A stretch of DNA of 62,369 nucleotides from a virus. How positions within the stretch are numbered: the first letter of the stretch is position 1; each line of letters begins with the position of its first letter. Location: IMG/VR virus record IMGVR_UViG_3300035681_000025, positions 1 to 62,369 of that record. One strand, given 5' to 3'. Position numbers and translations under genes: made by a program. The notes under the pieces were generated by a model. The model saw only the letters and a program-made list of their open reading frames with translations. It searched no databases and was not told the origin of the DNA. Shown here piece after piece: positions 8,416 to 58,417 of the stretch.

Positions 8416-8840
8416 ATTTCAAACTCTGAATATACCCAAAAAGGTTTACAATTAAAGACGTGAACAATATTATCATATATTTTCAATTCGAAGATTCCAA
8501 AATTTAAATAGGTAAAAACACGACCAGAATGGTCGAATTTTATGTATTGTTTGATTATAACTTTATTCTTTTTTTTGGTCATATGAAAACCATTGATAGC
8601 GTAAGATAATCTCCAATCATCACTTTGATTGAATTTAATAATTCTAGTTTCATTAATTCGCATTTTTTCCAAATTACTAACTATTACTGGAGATTTTGAA
8701 AAATAATTAGAATTTAAAATCAATTTTTCACCTTGACCAAAACAATAGTGTTGTAAAATTTTAGAAGCTTCTGGATAAATCGGGATTGACCCGATCATAA
8801 TCGAAATCAAAAAGACTTTAGTGAAAAAACTGATTATCAT
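8412..8840 (-). CDS. Secreted or membrane-anchored hypothetical protein (142 aa)
   Basis: An N-terminal hydrophobic stretch FFTKVFLISIMIGSIPIYPE reads as a signal peptide or anchor; the rest is soluble and beta-rich. A full Bacteroid-type promoter, TTG-N19-TATATTTG (8860-8889), lies just upstream, so it is probably expressed early, facing the late plus-strand genes. Its last codons overlap the end of the PG-binding gene by 4 bases. Function unknown; envelope location is inferred. Confidence 0.55.
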   Translation of the reverse strand: MIISFFTKVFLISIMIGSIPIYPEASKILQHYCFGQGEKLILNSNYFSKSPVIVSNLEKMRINETRIIKFNQSDDWRLSYAINGFHMTKKKNKVIIKQYIKFDHSGRVFTYLNFGIFELKIYDNIVHVFNCKPFWVYSEFEI

Positions 8841-14757: not shown

Positions 14758-15513
14758 ATGAGCTCATTACCTAATTATTTAGACGAAATCCCAAAAGAGT
14801 TTTTATCAAAGAAAGTCTCTGATTTAATTCAATCAATACTTGAAGAAATGTATCGAGATTATATCGGACAAATTGATGAACCGCCTTGTAAAACTCGTGA
14901 AGGGTTTTTAAACATATTTCCTGTCGATGAAAATACCAGTTGGTCTATTTTGAATTTCTTTTATTCCAATAGAAAAATGAAAACTAAAATGTATAGGTTT
15001 TTCGTAAAATCGATCTTACGGAGTTTACCTCCACGAGAGCAAACAGTTGATAATTTTATGGAATGGATGAAAGAAAATAAAGAAATTTTATTTGGAGAGG
15101 AGGGAGATACCGCAAAACAATTGAGAGATGTTGTTTGGTCGACTAGTGCTCGAGGATTTGAATTGGAGAAATCAACCTTACAAAGATTAAAAAAAGCCTA
15201 CAATACACTTACGGATGATAGGATCAAGGTTTTTTGTAAAGGTTCTCCAGAAGATGAAAAAGAAGGCATTGATTTTATGGTGGATGGAAAAGGATTTCAG
15301 ATAAAACAATTAGTCGGCGCAACCCAAAAAAATGGAAAATGGGAAATTACCACAATAGGTATGAAACAATATCCTAGTCCTCGTCTTAATTTTATGGTTT
15401 ACAGTAATGACAATAAAATTTTGATTTTTTTAAATCGAAACTCCGAAACAATTTCAAGACAAGGTGATAGATATGTCATTCGATATGACAAACCACCAGT
15501 GAGAGAATGTTAG
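14758..15513 (+). CDS. PD-(D/E)XK-like nuclease (251 aa)
   Basis: The C-terminal half shows a nuclease core: GFELEKSTLQRLKKAYN (helix with Glu), KEGIDFMVDGKGFQIKQLVG (Asp in a strand, then Q-x-K), then MKQYPSPRLNFMVYSND and ILIFLNRNS strands. This order matches PD-(D/E)XK folds in which the second acid is replaced by Gln. The N-terminal half is helical and may bind DNA. It could be a restriction-type or recombination nuclease; target unknown. Confidence 0.55.
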   Translation: MSSLPNYLDEIPKEFLSKKVSDLIQSILEEMYRDYIGQIDEPPCKTREGFLNIFPVDENTSWSILNFFYSNRKMKTKMYRFFVKSILRSLPPREQTVDNFMEWMKENKEILFGEEGDTAKQLRDVVWSTSARGFELEKSTLQRLKKAYNTLTDDRIKVFCKGSPEDEKEGIDFMVDGKGFQIKQLVGATQKNGKWEITTIGMKQYPSPRLNFMVYSNDNKILIFLNRNSETISRQGDRYVIRYDKPPVREC

Positions 15514-15556
15514 TATTGGCCTGAAAAAAAAATGGTCACAATGTGGACTAATCAAT

Positions 15557-16048
15557 TCACCTCACATAGACCAATTGACAATTGTCCATTACCCATTTTT
15601 TAGATATACATATGTGATTTGAACTAGTGGACATAGTTTCAAATTTCTTGAGACATTCAGATAGAACATCCGAGGTGGCCCCCTTCCATATCTTCAAACA
15701 TTTCAACCCATCGTTCTGATCGAACAGAGCGAAAAAAAACGCATTGTTTCTTTCGATACGATGAAGATTGTTCCTATGAATACGGTCCAATTGGAATGTA
15801 CCACCTTCTTTACAAGATAAGTATTCGTATTTCTCTGTGCCATCCAATGAAGTAGCATCGGCGCCATGTTTGGTCTTGTGACATTTATGACCCAAAATAT
15901 CGGATACCAACCACTCTTTGATGAATCCTGGTGTCAATAAATCTTGTTCAAAACCATGAGAATTTTTCAACAAATTCAACGTATCGATTAACAAAGACAA
16001 TTTGTTGGGTTGATGGTTTATGATATGAAGTAACTCGTCCGGTGTCAT
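15557..16048 (-). CDS. Restriction-endonuclease-like PD-(D/E)XK protein (163 aa)
   Basis: Contains GFIKEWLVSDILGHKCHKTK (Glu and Asp on a helix), HGADATSLDGTEKYEYLSCK (Asp, then E-x-x-x-C-K), then EGGTFQLDRI. The D...ExK arrangement with an N-terminal helix Glu fits a type II restriction fold. The length is short for a complete restriction enzyme. It may degrade host DNA, with the methyltransferase at 27052 protecting phage DNA, but the two are far apart and specificity cannot be read here. A TATATTTG box lies about 20 bases upstream (16068-16075). Confidence 0.5.
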   Translation of the reverse strand: MTPDELLHIINHQPNKLSLLIDTLNLLKNSHGFEQDLLTPGFIKEWLVSDILGHKCHKTKHGADATSLDGTEKYEYLSCKEGGTFQLDRIHRNNLHRIERNNAFFFALFDQNDGLKCLKIWKGATSDVLSECLKKFETMSTSSNHICISKKWVMDNCQLVYVR

Positions 16049-16905: not shown

Positions 16906-16908
16906 TGC

Positions 16909-17017
16909 AGTCAGGACAGGATTCGAACCTGTATGTGATTTGACATGCTTTTTTATAATGCTTCTTAAATCACTTATCCGCCTTCAGTTTTTGCGTCTAC
17001 CATTCCGCCACCTGACT
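16909..17017 (-). ncRNA. Scaffold RNA L2 (109 bases)
   Basis: Acceptor, D-arm (GCGG..ACGC) and T-arm identical to the family consensus. The core between D- and T-arm is about 60 bases and includes a 7-bp helix GTGATTT/AAATCAC just before the T-arm. No normal 5-bp/7-base anticodon arm is visible. AGCAT occurs twice as a direct repeat. Confidence 0.65.
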
Positions 17018-19354: not shown

Positions 19355-19510
19355 AATTTAGTAATTCATCTGTTGAGTATCCAGTCAACATTAAACACTT
19401 AATTTCCGTTTTTAGCATTCTAAAAAATATAAAAAATACTCTTCTACTAGGTCTTTTCCAAAACAATTTCCAAATATAATTTAATGTTCTAAACATATCT
19501 TTAATTTTGT
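19355..19510 (-). other. Spacer with internal 9-bp helix
   Basis: AACATTAAA (19387-19395) pairs with TTTAATGTT (19480-19488); outer TTTAG/CTAAA extends it. Between L3 and L4; no gene seen. Confidence 0.4.
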
Positions 19511-19612
19511 AGTCAGGACAGGATTCGAACCTGCGGTCATCAGAGTATAGGTACTTGGTTACCACTCCTCAGACTCTTCCAAGTTAGCGTTAGCCCACTC
19601 CGCCACCTGACT
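19511..19612 (-). ncRNA. Scaffold RNA L4 (102 bases)
   Basis: Family acceptor, T-arm with one end change. The anticodon-position stem ACTTGG/CCAAGT carries a 20-base loop instead of 7; inside it CTGAGGA would offer a GAG (Leu) anticodon after T33. AGAGT/ACTCT adds a further long-range pairing. Confidence 0.6.
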
Positions 19613-22306: not shown

Positions 22307-22343
22307 TAGCCATACTTCAAAAAAAATCAATCCCCCAAAAAGT

Positions 22344-22458
22344 AGTCAGGACAGGATTCGAACCTGTATGGTATTTTGTATCTGTTCCTGGTGTGTACTT
22401 AACTAGTATCTATACCTCACATTTTAAAAATTAGCGTCTACCATTCCGCCACCTGACT
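22344..22458 (-). ncRNA. Scaffold RNA L11 (115 bases)
   Basis: Consensus acceptor, D-arm and T-arm. TTTAAAA after the D-arm could offer a TAA anticodon, but the flanks pair poorly. A helix GGTAT/ATACC before the T-arm encloses about 37 bases. Confidence 0.6.
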
Positions 22459-32244: not shown

Positions 32245-32595
32245 ATGGGATTATTTAAATCACTTTTGTACAATACGGAATTCCAAAATGTACAACCCGA
32301 CCAAAGGTTTAATTTTATGCTACAACAAATGCAATCAAATCGTTGGAAAATTACATTATTAATTTTATTTACCTTTTTCTTTATCGTTTTTGGTATTGTA
32401 ATGGCAGTAATGTTTAAAGCAACGATTGAAGAAGCATGGAAAGAGTTACTTCTTATTCTTTTAGGGGCTTTTGTTGGTAACTTGAATAAAGTTATCGATT
32501 TTTGGTTTTCGAACGAAGATAGAGATAAAATGTTAGTTCAAAAAATGGACGAAGAAGATGGGGTTTCTTTATCATCCAATAACGAAGTCAACTGA
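32245..32595 (+). CDS. Membrane protein with two helices (116 aa)
   Basis: Hydrophobic segments WKITLLILFTFFFIVFGIVM and ELLLILLGAFVGNLNKVIDF, flanked by polar ends. Starts 1 base after the holin-like gene and is co-transcribed with it. It could be an antiholin or holin partner, or assist the secretion genes that follow. Confidence 0.55.
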   Translation: MGLFKSLLYNTEFQNVQPDQRFNFMLQQMQSNRWKITLLILFTFFFIVFGIVMAVMFKATIEEAWKELLLILLGAFVGNLNKVIDFWFSNEDRDKMLVQKMDEEDGVSLSSNNEVN

Positions 32596-32602
32596 TTCTA
32601 TT

Positions 32603-34504
32603 ATGAAAAAAATAATTTTAGGATTTTTATTATTGTTTTCTGTAAATGTATATGGACAGAATGGGAGAAACGAAGTATTAGTTTCTCCCAATTCATCGTC
32701 ACCTTATTTTTTGATAGATACTGTATTCACGTTGGGTAGTATACTCAATGACACGACAGTCGTATACTTACACTATCATAATCCAACTACGACCAACTAT
32801 GTTGGTTTTCAAGTAAGGTTTTTTTATCCGCCTCAATCATTCAAAACTCCTATTGTGAAATGGGGTCCGAGTGTAAGTACAATTTCCACAAAATATGGTT
32901 CGTACTATACACAACCTGGTTGGGTTAATGCAACTGCAATTTATACAGGAAACCAAGCAATATTTGATTTTCCAGATGGAGCGGTTTTTGAGATTTTACT
33001 ACCGCATTCATCAACATTCAATCCATCTTCAGTTGACTCATTGAGAGTTCAGGGTACACCTTCTTATTCTAATATAGCAACAACAATGAGTGGATTTGAT
33101 AACACTTTGGGAACTTTCAATTATGGTGGCGGATTCAAAATGGATACCGTTCGTATTCCGATTACAGTGTTGAATGTTGATGGTACACCAGCACCTGAAA
33201 TGCCATTTGCCTACGACTTCAAACTAAAGTCGTCTCAGGTTTATTTTAGAGGAGATCGTTTCACAACCAATACAAATGGTATCGCTCTTATAAAAATCCC
33301 ATATGATACTTCTTTTTATAATGTAAAATTAGTTTCCAATTTGGACACTTTATCAGACAATTCATCTATAAACATTACTGATGCTTACCGTTTGTCTGAC
33401 ATGAGTATTTATGCGGATACCGCTCAGTCCTATGAATTCCAACAAGGTGATGTAAATAGAAGTGGCAATTTATCAGTATCTGACGCCTACCTTATATTCA
33501 ATCGTTTAGCCACAGGACGTTCATCTTGGTCACCTGTTATTGCAAACGAGTATAATGTAAGATATTACACAACAAATGAATACAATACCATCATCGCCAA
33601 TCCCAATATTTTCCAAACAGGAATTATAGGAACTACATTGATAGACCAAAATCTGAACGGTACTAATGGAATAACATACTATGGATACGTTTTGGGGGAT
33701 GTCACCAATACAGGATTGAATAATTTATCATTTCAAATTCAAAGAGTAAATAACCCAAGTGTAGGGACTTCTTATGTTTTGGATGAGGGAACTATTTATC
33801 AGAATATTCAAGACTCAGTACAATTTAGAATACCTAGATTAACGATCTCTGATGATAACACCGTAAACGTTGGAGTTACTTTCATTACTCATGGTAACAA
33901 AGTTGGCGCAGCACAAATAGGTTTACAATTTGATCCCAATATTTTCAGATTTTCAGAAATTAATGTTGGTCCTGAGGCTAGTTCTTGGAACTCATTTATT
34001 TCCACAAAACCAGGCGAAATTTTATGGGGAGGACATGAGTCAAAAATGTCACCATCCTTAATAACAAATTCAACTCAAATGTTCAACTTCAAGTTTAATA
34101 TTTTGAATTCAAATTGGGAACAATCACCAATCAAAATTACCAACAAAGCGGCTGGTAACGATAAAGCCGAAGATCTGAATATTATTCCATCACCTGTTGA
34201 TGCAACAGTTATTAATGGAAGAAGAGCAAGAGAACTTGTCAATGAATTAGTAAACGGTTTTAGAGTTTATCCAAACCCAGTAAATGATAATTTGAGTATT
34301 GACTACTATCAAACAAATTGGGGATATTTATATTACGAAATCTATGATTACACAGGTAAGTTATACTTTACAAACAGGGAATTTGTCACTCAAAATGAAA
34401 TTGTCACAAGACAAATAGATGTTAGTAATTTAAAACCAGGTTTCTACTTTGTAAGATTAACAACCAATGAAAAACAAAAGATTCATAAAATAATTAAAAA
34501 GTAA
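32603..34504 (+). CDS. Secreted protein with type IX secretion sorting domain (633 aa)
   Basis: Start at ATG 32603: MKKIILGFLLLFSVNVYGQ is a signal peptide. GDVNRSGNLSVSDAYLIFNR is a dockerin-like calcium segment, and GAAQIGLQFDPNIFRFSEIN looks cohesin-like. The last 75 residues (FRVYPNPVNDNLSIDYYQ, then YDYTGKLYF, VSNLKPGFYFVRLTT, KIHKIIKK) are a T9SS type A sorting domain: PNP motif, G-K turn, L-x-x-G-x-Y and a basic end. In Bacteroidota this domain sends proteins through the outer membrane to the cell surface. A phage copy implies use of the host T9SS or homology to tail-fibre-like surface proteins. Confidence 0.85.
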   Translation: MKKIILGFLLLFSVNVYGQNGRNEVLVSPNSSSPYFLIDTVFTLGSILNDTTVVYLHYHNPTTTNYVGFQVRFFYPPQSFKTPIVKWGPSVSTISTKYGSYYTQPGWVNATAIYTGNQAIFDFPDGAVFEILLPHSSTFNPSSVDSLRVQGTPSYSNIATTMSGFDNTLGTFNYGGGFKMDTVRIPITVLNVDGTPAPEMPFAYDFKLKSSQVYFRGDRFTTNTNGIALIKIPYDTSFYNVKLVSNLDTLSDNSSINITDAYRLSDMSIYADTAQSYEFQQGDVNRSGNLSVSDAYLIFNRLATGRSSWSPVIANEYNVRYYTTNEYNTIIANPNIFQTGIIGTTLIDQNLNGTNGITYYGYVLGDVTNTGLNNLSFQIQRVNNPSVGTSYVLDEGTIYQNIQDSVQFRIPRLTISDDNTVNVGVTFITHGNKVGAAQIGLQFDPNIFRFSEINVGPEASSWNSFISTKPGEILWGGHESKMSPSLITNSTQMFNFKFNILNSNWEQSPIKITNKAAGNDKAEDLNIIPSPVDATVINGRRARELVNELVNGFRVYPNPVNDNLSIDYYQTNWGYLYYEIYDYTGKLYFTNREFVTQNEIVTRQIDVSNLKPGFYFVRLTTNEKQKIHKIIKK

Positions 34505-55110: not shown

Positions 55111-55115
55111 AAGTG

Positions 55116-55511
55116 TGGAGCTAGGTGGATTCGAACCACCGTCCTGTGAATTACTTCACGAAAGGTCTACATGATTATTTAGTTATTCTTAACTAACAAA
55201 TAGACGGTTCATTTAAATGAATGTCTCCGACAACTACATCAAGTTTTATTACGGAAAAACTTAATAAATCCTCCATTCCTGTTATGGTAGAAACCACACC
55301 TTTAGGACTTCTGTTGCAAGGTGTACAGTCCGTAACCCCTGGTGATTGCATCAATTAAGCTACAACCGCGACTTCGGTCTTCAAGAGTCCGATAGCCTCC
55401 ATGTTTGCGAAAACATCGCCATTTGATTTTTTGAATCAGTTTTTACGAGGTTAATTCAGCCCCGTCATGCCCTTTCAGATCCGTAGAAACCAGTCGATTC
55501 CTGTTAGCCCC
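55116..55511 (-). ncRNA. ssrA: tmRNA (ssrA)
   Basis: Minus-strand RNA beginning GGGGCTAACAGGAATCGACT and ending GGTTCGAATCCACCTAGCTC, with acceptor pairing GGGGCTA/TAGCTCC; this is the tRNA-like domain of tmRNA. The internal tag frame ends KTEVAVVA-stop (stop at 55355-55357). It can start at GCA (17 residues from Ala-Asn-Met) or four codons earlier at GGC. The C-terminus V-V-A differs from the usual A-L-A-A. CCA is not encoded. A TTG-N19-TATATTTA promoter precedes the gene. It rescues stalled ribosomes and tags proteins for degradation. Confidence 0.93.
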
Positions 55512-55576: not shown

Positions 55577-56395
55577 ATGGAATACCGAAATTACGAATTA
55601 TTAAAATCAATTTTATCAGTACCAACAAAAACTTATCAAGAAGACTTGATGATAGAGTTTTTGGATAAATTTCTTACTGAACAAAACATACCCCATTATA
55701 TCGATGATTATGGAAATGTGTACGCCACTAAAACTTCTGAAAGATTTTCAGACCAAGTATTTCCTTGTGTAATTGCACACACTGATACTGTTCACACGTT
55801 AGTTGACAAAATTATTGTCAAAGAATTCATAGGCAAGGACAGACAACAAAGGTCCAAAACATGTCTAAAAGGTGTTAACTCAAAAGGGATGCCGACAGGT
55901 ATTGGTGGTGATGATAAATGTGGAATTTTTGGTGCTCTTACAATTTTGATGGATCTACCGCATGTTAAAGCGGCATTTTTTGTAAGTGAGGAGACAGGTT
56001 GTCACGGGTCAAAAAATAGTGATCCTGAATTTTTTAAAAACGTTGGGTATACCATCCAACTTGATGCTCCCGAAAATTATATGGTTTCTGAAGTGTGTAG
56101 TGGTGTAAGATTGTTCAAAAGGGATTCAGATTTTTTTCGATGTGTAGATCCGATAATTTGTGAAATGATGATTGATCCTGAGTATATGTATCACCCGTAT
56201 ACTGATGTTTCTCAAATGGTTTTAAAACACGGATTGGCATCAATTAATATTTCTTGTGGATATTACAATTATCATACCGCAAATGAATATATCGTGTTGG
56301 ATGACCTTTATAATTCAATCGAGGTTGTGAAACGAATGATTGAATCATTAGGTTATGAAAGCTACTTAATGGAACCGAACGGAATCAGATGGTAA
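55577..56395 (+). CDS. M20/M28-like zinc peptidase (272 aa)
   Basis: Metal ligands in order: CVIAHTDTVHT (His/Asp), GIGGDDKCGIFGA (bridging Asp), AFFVSEETGCHGS (Glu-Glu, base and ligand), YTIQLDAPENY (Asp) and CGYYNYHTANEYI (His). This matches di-zinc aminopeptidases such as peptidase T. The dimerisation domain is short. Intracellular. It may recycle peptides with the Clp ATPase and DnaK encoded next to it. Has its own host-type promoter. Confidence 0.8.
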   Translation: MEYRNYELLKSILSVPTKTYQEDLMIEFLDKFLTEQNIPHYIDDYGNVYATKTSERFSDQVFPCVIAHTDTVHTLVDKIIVKEFIGKDRQQRSKTCLKGVNSKGMPTGIGGDDKCGIFGALTILMDLPHVKAAFFVSEETGCHGSKNSDPEFFKNVGYTIQLDAPENYMVSEVCSGVRLFKRDSDFFRCVDPIICEMMIDPEYMYHPYTDVSQMVLKHGLASINISCGYYNYHTANEYIVLDDLYNSIEVVKRMIESLGYESYLMEPNGIRW

Positions 56396-56396
56396 A

Positions 56397-56424
56397 AAAA
56401 AAGGGACTTAAGTCCCTTTTTTTG
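56397..56424. terminator. Bidirectional terminator between convergent genes
   Basis: Palindrome AAGGGACTTAAGTCCCTT with A and T runs on either side, shared by the peptidase and Clp genes. Confidence 0.8.
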
Positions 56425-58417
56425 TTGATATTCTGATCTCTTCTTCTTTGAAGCTTAGATAATAATTTTTACCTTCTACAATATCTCCTGAGAGATATTT
56501 TTCGGAGATTAGGTCCTCGATTTTTTCTTGTATAGCCCTTTTTATTGGTCGAGCACCATAGGTTTCATCAAAACCAACTTCGGCTATGTGATCAATAACT
56601 GAGTCCTGACAAATTACATTAATTTTCAAACTTTTCAGACGGGTTGTAAGTTTTGTGACTTCGATTTTAACAATCTCTTTTACCTCTTCTTTTCCCAATG
56701 AATTGAAAACAATTACATCATCAATACGATTGAGAAATTCTGGTTGGAAATATTTTTTCATTTCAGATTTAAGAATCAATTTCTTTTTCTCCTCTTCAGC
56801 GTATCGATTTGTCGTAAATCCAATCCCCGTTCCGAAATCTTGAATTTTTTTGATCCCAATATTTGAGGTCATAATAATTAAACAATTTTTGAAACTAATT
56901 TTTCTACCTAAACCATCGGTGATGTGTCCTTCATCCAACATTTGGAGAAGTGTATGAAAAATATCTTTGTTAGCTTTCTCAATTTCATCAAATAAAACGA
57001 GTGAGTATGGTTTTGCTTTTACTTGTTCAGTAAGTTGACCTCCTTGGTCGTAACCAACATAACCTGGGGGAGCCCCAATTAACCTAGATACAGTATGTTT
57101 TTCTTGATATTCACTCATATCAACCCGAATTAATGCATCAGAAGAACCGAAAACTTGTTCAGCAAGTTGTTTTGCTAAGTGGGTCTTTCCAACACCTGTC
57201 GCTCCTAAGAAAATGTAAGAACCAATCGGTTTGTTAGGATCTTTAAATTTAAGTCTATTCCTACGAATAGATTTTGAGATTTTTGTGACAGCCTCACTCT
57301 GACCTATTACTTTTTTAGATAACTCAGTTTCAAGATTCGATAAACTATTCTTATCGTCGAGAGTCAATCGATTCAAAGGTATTTTGGTCATATTGGAAAC
57401 AACATCTAATACAATGTCAACATCTATCGGACGTTTGTTCATCAGTAGTTCCTTTTCGAATTTGTTTTTTTCAATTTCTAATTTGTCCAATATTTTTTTC
57501 TCGGCATCTCTTAGATCTGCGGCTTTTTCATAGTCTTGTTTTTTAACTACGTCTAATTTTTGTTTTTTGATTTCTGCAGCCTTATTCTTGAGATTTTCAA
57601 TAATTGGTGGAGATTTGACATCAATTTGTGATTTTGAACCTACTTCATCCAAGATATCAAAAGCTTTATCTGGGAATTCTCTGTCCGTAATATATCGATC
57701 TGCTAAATTTACACATAGTTCCAAAACCTCATCCGAGTATGTCACCTTATGAAAATCTTCATATCTTGTTTTGGACTGTTTAATGATTTGAAGAGTTTCT
57801 GATTTGGAAGGTGGATCAACAACAACCTTCTGAAATCGTCTTTCGAGAGCTCCATCTTTTTCAATATGTTGTCGGTATTCATCAAATGTCGTAGCTCCGA
57901 TACAATGAATTTCCCCACGAGAAAGTGCGGGTTTGAAAATGTTCGAAGCGTCCATTGTCCCTGATGAATTTCCGGCGCCTACCATAGTGTGGATTTCATC
58001 TATGAAGATGATAACGTCTGGGTTTTCAGCAATTTCCTCGATGATAGCTTTCATTCGTTCTTCAAATTGACCACGATACTTGGTTCCAGCCACAATTGAA
58101 GTCAGATCCAAATTTACGATTCGTTTATCCCTTAAATTTCTCGGACATTTACCTTCATGAATTTGAATTGCCAAACCTTCTACTATAGAGGTTTTACCAG
58201 CCCCTGGTTCACCAATGATTATAGCATTATTTTTTTTCCTACGAGAAAGAATTTGTGCAATTCGAGAAATCTCAACTTCTCTACCAATAACTGGGTCTAG
58301 TTTGCCTTCAGATGCGAGTTTATTCAAATCTCTACTGAAATTATCCAAGACTGGAGTACCTCCACTTTTTTTACGAACTTCTTGTTCTTTTTCGTTGTCA
58401 TCCATTGATTCGATCAT
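56408..58417 (-). CDS. clpC: ClpA/ClpC-type AAA+ ATPase (669 aa)
   Basis: Two AAA+ modules: D1 with IIIGEPGAGKTSIVEG (Walker A), VIIFIDEIHTMVGAG (Walker B), GALERRFQKVVVDPPS (Arg finger region); D2 with YIFLGATGVGKTHLAKQ and SLVLFDEIEKA, then GYVGYDQGG pore loop and FLNRIDDVIVF. A short UVR-like helix (KQDYEKAADLRDAEKKIL) lies between. It lacks the N-terminal Clp-N domain, so substrates must bind otherwise. With the host ClpP it could degrade selected proteins; as a lone unfoldase it might act in assembly. An early-type promoter lies upstream. Confidence 0.9.
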   Translation of the reverse strand: MIESMDDNEKEQEVRKKSGGTPVLDNFSRDLNKLASEGKLDPVIGREVEISRIAQILSRRKKNNAIIIGEPGAGKTSIVEGLAIQIHEGKCPRNLRDKRIVNLDLTSIVAGTKYRGQFEERMKAIIEEIAENPDVIIFIDEIHTMVGAGNSSGTMDASNIFKPALSRGEIHCIGATTFDEYRQHIEKDGALERRFQKVVVDPPSKSETLQIIKQSKTRYEDFHKVTYSDEVLELCVNLADRYITDREFPDKAFDILDEVGSKSQIDVKSPPIIENLKNKAAEIKKQKLDVVKKQDYEKAADLRDAEKKILDKLEIEKNKFEKELLMNKRPIDVDIVLDVVSNMTKIPLNRLTLDDKNSLSNLETELSKKVIGQSEAVTKISKSIRRNRLKFKDPNKPIGSYIFLGATGVGKTHLAKQLAEQVFGSSDALIRVDMSEYQEKHTVSRLIGAPPGYVGYDQGGQLTEQVKAKPYSLVLFDEIEKANKDIFHTLLQMLDEGHITDGLGRKISFKNCLIIMTSNIGIKKIQDFGTGIGFTTNRYAEEEKKKLILKSEMKKYFQPEFLNRIDDVIVFNSLGKEEVKEIVKIEVTKLTTRLKSLKINVICQDSVIDHIAEVGFDETYGARPIKRAIQEKIEDLISEKYLSGDIVEGKNYYLSFKEEEIRISTKKGT

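Follow-up and report, generated by a model that had tools for sequence, protein, structure and literature searches.

Whether a tmRNA carried by a virus only supplements the rescue and tagging system of its host or directs tagged proteins to a different fate is seldom considered. tmRNAs are already known from phages (PMC4131195, PMC7162821, PMC9004378), although genome papers usually just mention them and do not address the purpose of the tagging, and the discussion in PMC9004378 is speculation. The question is raised by a 62,369-base IMG/VR virus record, analysed here over its whole length and called the window, for which a first-pass annotation had proposed that a tmRNA with an atypical tag may redirect tagging instead of supplementing it.

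A phage tmRNA and its tag reading frame

A one-piece tmRNA gene was located at 55115..55511 on the minus strand by ARAGORN, by the Rfam family RF00023 and by a profile family of 118 full-length relatives. The Rfam match (55113-55511) is full-length, covering model positions 1-374 with 96.9 bits (E 1.5e-36), well above the gathering score of 47. As read from the sequence, the acceptor stem GGGGCTA/TAGCTCC contains the G3-U70 wobble that constitutes the alanine signature, and A is the discriminator base; the gene terminates in ACAC on the 3' side, so that CCA is not encoded and must be added. The predicted fold is more stable than that of shuffled sequence (z -2.98). These features indicate that the element is a working phage tmRNA with a tRNA-like domain and an alanine signature, and the earlier description of a tmRNA with all expected ends was confirmed by ARAGORN and Rfam, its coordinates being right to within one base. 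Three further Rfam matches in the window, to tRNAs of 103-116 nt (16908-17017, 19510-19612 and 22343-22458, minus strand), were not called by ARAGORN and have long inserts or long variable arms.

The tag frame, GDVFANMEAIGLLKTEVAVVA followed by the stop TAA, occupies 55355..55420 on the minus strand and was established from aligned relatives, the position of the resume codon and a codon selection test. The resume codon is GGC at 55418-55420 (RNA position 92) and the stop lies at 55357-55355, within the loop of the helix that follows, as in other tmRNAs; both the position and the upstream context of this codon resemble those of Bacteroidota tmRNAs, in which it is found at RNA position 90-99. 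The tag thus encodes 21 residues counted from GGC, and the KTEVAVVA end and the considerable length attributed to it initially are both right. A C-terminal L-A-A or close variant, by which a ClpXP-type ssrA degron is recognized, is absent, as the window tag ends V-V-A.

The first-pass annotation had named an ARAGORN call in another frame with a normal ALAA end as the result that would speak against its reading. ARAGORN does call another frame in the window, GMEDLLSFSVIKLDVVVGDIHLNEPSIC (beginning GMEDLLSFS, from RNA position 233), and this tag has no ALAA end. We consider it a miscall, unconserved and in the wrong place; it recurs in three near-identical contigs only, and for 15 other relatives ARAGORN itself chooses the frame described here, giving either the complete tag or its final 8 residues. 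Because the aligned relatives share the same kind of tag and GGC stands where Bacteroidota tmRNAs have their resume codon, we conclude that the originally proposed frame is the right one.

Conservation of the tag and the tags of likely hosts

A profile search of related loci recovered 118 full-length tmRNAs from about 111 contigs, with 99 distinct sequences, and all aligned relatives contain the same kind of tag in a shared reading frame. The 99 parsed tags are 21 (86 tags) or 22 (13 tags) residues long, begin with Gly in 95 cases and end with Ala in 98; the penultimate residue is V in 73 and otherwise mainly T, A or G, and none of them has an LAA or MAA end. Among the 71 distinct 21-residue tags, position 11 is invariably Gly and position 12 is Leu in 70. 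The best conserved part of the tag is an internal core (K, M/L, G, L; KM--IGL), and few positions are as well conserved as the C-terminal Ala. The sole full-length family tag with an Ile end, GNTFAKLAALGLTKEEAVVTI, is found at 15496-15875 (plus strand) of locus L055. A very compact tmRNA of 266 nt (Rfam 75 bits) lies at 8554-8819 (minus strand) of L162, a ClpP-bearing relative; its tag, read by eye, is GNIIDNLVLNGIVKYDDSTVLV and ends in Val rather than Ala, and much of its pseudoknot region is missing.

The DNA encoding the tag has diverged to as little as 37% identity across relatives. We arranged related tmRNAs in 32 non-overlapping pairs and counted single-base codon differences within them. 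In the tag frame 60 differences were synonymous and 28 non-synonymous, against an expected synonymous share of 0.256 (p 7e-17), whereas the other two frames gave synonymous to non-synonymous counts of 17:74 and 10:85, with no signal. As the test is significant in the tag frame only, the peptide is preserved and not the RNA alone; the tag is a clade-specific 21-residue peptide under strong amino-acid selection. Searching 50,697 phage records with the window tmRNA by blastn gave no match. A tblastn search with the consensus tag also gave none, which is weak evidence because a 21-residue query detects near-identical tags only. The literature that we found, in a search of incomplete coverage, contains no account of this tag family or of a linkage between phage tmRNA and ClpC.

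Bacteroidota are the likely hosts of the virus, as suggested by two genes in the window. The best 80 cellular relatives of its DnaK are all labelled Bacteroidota, and a protein with a TIGR04183 type 9 secretion sorting domain is encoded at 32558-34504 on the plus strand (score 46 bits, cut-off 23). This sorting domain is a Bacteroidota trait, and the virus seems to export cargo through the type 9 secretion system of its host. Huge phages of the Mahaphage clade (>634 kb) have been predicted to infect Bacteroidetes (PMC7162821), in agreement with this host assignment. The window also contains an IS200/IS605-type TnpB within the phage (43331-44539, minus strand; NCBIfam, above cut-off).

A tmRNA scoring above cut-off is present in 27 of 29 Bacteroidota genomes drawn from the DnaK relatives, and ARAGORN parsed 24 main tags from them, all of 9-10 residues with an LAA or MAA end (for example, GENNYALAA, GNEEYALAA and DNTSYALAA). 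The phage tag is unlike all 24 and about twice the usual host length. Rfam scores of the phage tmRNAs range from 50 to 118 bits, and those of the host tmRNAs are mostly 103-160 bits. One Flavobacteriia MAG from a lake contains a second tmRNA (L295, 985-1353, plus strand), whose 20-residue tag GINNALSNFFGSAEEMPLAA has a PLAA end. It was considered as kin of the phage tag family and rejected, as no link was found; the contig possibly belongs to another bacterium in the bin.

The Clp neighbourhood and its partners

A ClpC-type double-ring ATPase without an N-domain and with the docking loop GIGF is encoded at 56408..58417 on the minus strand. It matches S. aureus ClpC (PDB 6em8) with E 2e-214, and the two proteins have in common both AAA+ rings, the ClpC-type middle domain, the pore loops and the ClpP-docking loop. 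Unlike bacterial ClpC, the phage protein lacks the N-terminal adaptor-binding domain, because the alignment starts at ClpC residue 154; it begins just ahead of the first AAA+ ring, and no relative has more than 74 additional codons upstream. The docking loop reads GTGIGF in the window, in agreement with the pattern (I/L/V)G(F/L). The exact motif FGTG[IVL]G[FL] occurs in 103 of 153 ClpC proteins, with variants such as FGAGVGF in several others, and relatives retain the Walker motifs as well as the pore loops. Between the tmRNA and this ATPase lies a PepT-like M20/M42 metallopeptidase (55577..56395, plus strand), identified by Pfam and as a peptidase by PHROG, with an NCBIfam match below cut-off; its catalytic HxD, DDK, EE and H motifs are kept in nearly all of 156 relatives.

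This gene order is constant. In all 131 scorable loci (a small number of contigs being represented twice), clpC is followed downstream by the tmRNA on the same strand with the peptidase between them, and in 129 of these the peptidase is on the opposite strand. Nearly all loci that lack a tmRNA are cut off at a distance of about 3.5 kb or less from clpC. The first-pass annotation had noted that the window encodes its own Clp-type ATPase, and we can now specify that it is ClpC-type, of the ClpP-docking kind, and near the tmRNA in every scorable relative. Because the intervening peptidase sits on the other strand, the three genes are not an operon, and their constant order could reflect no more than conserved synteny.

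The peptidase partner of ClpC is present in part of the family. ClpP was found in 18 of 57 tmRNA-bearing fragments (9/20 and 9/37), and all 18 genes are on the far side of the tmRNA as seen from clpC, at a distance of 11-43 kb from the tmRNA. The Ser, His and Asp in ClpP motifs are present in all eight ClpP sequences read, and one of the proteins, compared with solved structures, matched bacterial ClpP with E 3e-47. SmpB occurs near the tmRNA in 11 loci and was found by profile in 5 of 22 records; neither ClpX nor SspB was found in 22 records. In the window, tblastn found neither ClpP nor SmpB, though 55 kb on the side that bears ClpP in relatives are present. Since the small clade of the window in the ClpC tree groups with ClpP-bearing phages, ClpP may have been lost or relocated.

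Among contigs that extend 30 kb or more past the tmRNA, ClpP was present in 13 of 13 with T at tag position 3 and in 2 of 17 with other residues; we do not accept that tag type follows ClpP presence, because this pattern amounts to no more than 3 changes when placed on the ClpC tree, for which a sign test gives a median p of 0.25. Several ClpP copies are found in huge phages, two in LR745206 and three in LR756502. The former (LR745206.1; W01, loci L005, L261, L168 and L296-L329) encodes ClpC, two ClpP and SmpB, and no tmRNA was found in it above the Rfam cut-off, by default ARAGORN or with the phage profile, relaxed ARAGORN settings giving noise; it has either an SmpB without an RNA partner or a very divergent tmRNA.

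Proposed function and comparison with known systems

A selected clade tag beside a phage unfoldase suggests, rather than proves, virus-owned marking and destruction of unfinished proteins. We give an even chance to the proposal that the tag is a phage-specific degron read by the phage ClpC in partnership with ClpP from the phage or the host, the recognition by ClpC being what we infer from the genomes. According to this proposal, the phage tmRNA and host SmpB (or, in some relatives, phage SmpB) would rescue ribosomes stalled during infection, and A-GDVFANMEAIGLLKTEVAVVA would be added to the stalled products. The long tag would then act as a degron of the phage, and its threading would fall mainly to the phage ClpC. 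This unfoldase would pass substrates to phage ClpP or, in phages that have none, to host ClpP, and the peptidase may trim the degradation products. The phage would in this way keep its own tag-unfold-degrade-recycle route alongside that of the host. ClpA reads ssrA tags by its pores. A ClpC without the N-domain, and hence without N-domain adaptors, would be left with pore-readable degrons, and a longer tag may offer a double-ring machine a greater length of unstructured chain to hold; for these two reasons ClpC is favoured as the reader. The initial idea of redirected tagging is partly supported, by a tag unlike those of the likely hosts, by amino-acid selection, by the adjacent Clp gene and by ClpP and SmpB in relatives, and is weakened by the lack of ClpP in the window; redirection itself would be one interpretation of these features.

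A stricter version, in which huge Bacteroidota phages use a private degron read only by the phage ClpC (together with phage ClpP in some of the clade), separately from host ClpXP, is possible but doubtful. If true, the phage would recycle amino acids or choose the proteins destroyed during infection. The terminal Ala of 98 of the 99 tags might be accepted by host ClpXP, and it may well read the V-V-A end, since LVA variants of the E. coli tag have been built and have served as degradation tags (PMC9382460). The suggestion that such an end is poorly recognized by host ClpXP is not supported.

The same LVA variants, together with the almost constant terminal Ala, the prevalence of V, or else mainly T, A or G, before it and the lack of ClpP in the window, are compatible with plain supplementation. 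In this case the tmRNA would provide extra rescue capacity while host translation fails, and its products would be degraded by host ClpXP or ClpCP, as host-tagged proteins are, by means of a divergent but ordinary Ala-ended ssrA degron. We regard this as rather unlikely, because a tag of 21-22 residues with an invariant Gly and a near-invariant Leu, unlike the parsed host tags, exceeds what a generic end needs, and because the linkage to a phage ClpC is constant. It is improbable that the tag is instead a label that stabilizes, localizes or inactivates truncated phage or host proteins, or binds a phage factor through the KM--IGL core, with rescue as the main benefit. The conservation of this internal core beyond the C-terminus would fit such a role, and in E. 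coli changes at the last residues make the tag resistant to degradation with rescue unharmed; however, the C-terminal Ala is as conserved as a pore-read degron would require, and a tag-like C-terminus was looked for on phage ORFs and none was found. That the tmRNA is a drifting, cell-derived passenger with a decayed tag is very improbable: the phage Rfam scores do lie below most host scores, but this reading is already contradicted by the purifying selection on the tag (p 7e-17), and almost all contigs of sufficient length carry the gene.

The proposed phage degron and its putative reader can be set beside several known systems. The one-piece tmRNAs of Bacteroidota (RF00023) share with those of the phages the RNA family, a length of about 400 nt and a Gly resume codon, mostly GGC. 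Their tags, such as GENNYALAA, have 9-10 residues and an ALAA or AMAA end, in contrast to the 21-22 residues, V-x-V/A-A end and internal Gly-Leu of the phage family. A non-LAA phage tag is not unique, because the tmRNA of Bacillus phage G carries AKLNITNNELQVA, which also ends VA rather than LAA; this tag has 13 residues, shows no sequence similarity to the window family and belongs to a Bacillus phage.

The precedent for a tag moved to another protease is Mesoplasma florum, whose longer tag has an NYAFA end and is read by Lon (PMC9382460, PMC8138137). Both systems combine a long tag and an unusual end with a different protease reader, established in M. florum by biochemistry, for Lon, in cells without ClpXP, and proposed here, for ClpC, from genomic evidence. 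A selected clade tag that is unlike host tags and tied by gene order to a phage Clp makes the purpose of phage tagging directly testable. If the tag is orthogonal to host ClpXP, it would form a natural virus-encoded pair of degron and protease, and the phages would join the mollicutes as a second example of a tag that has changed its reader.
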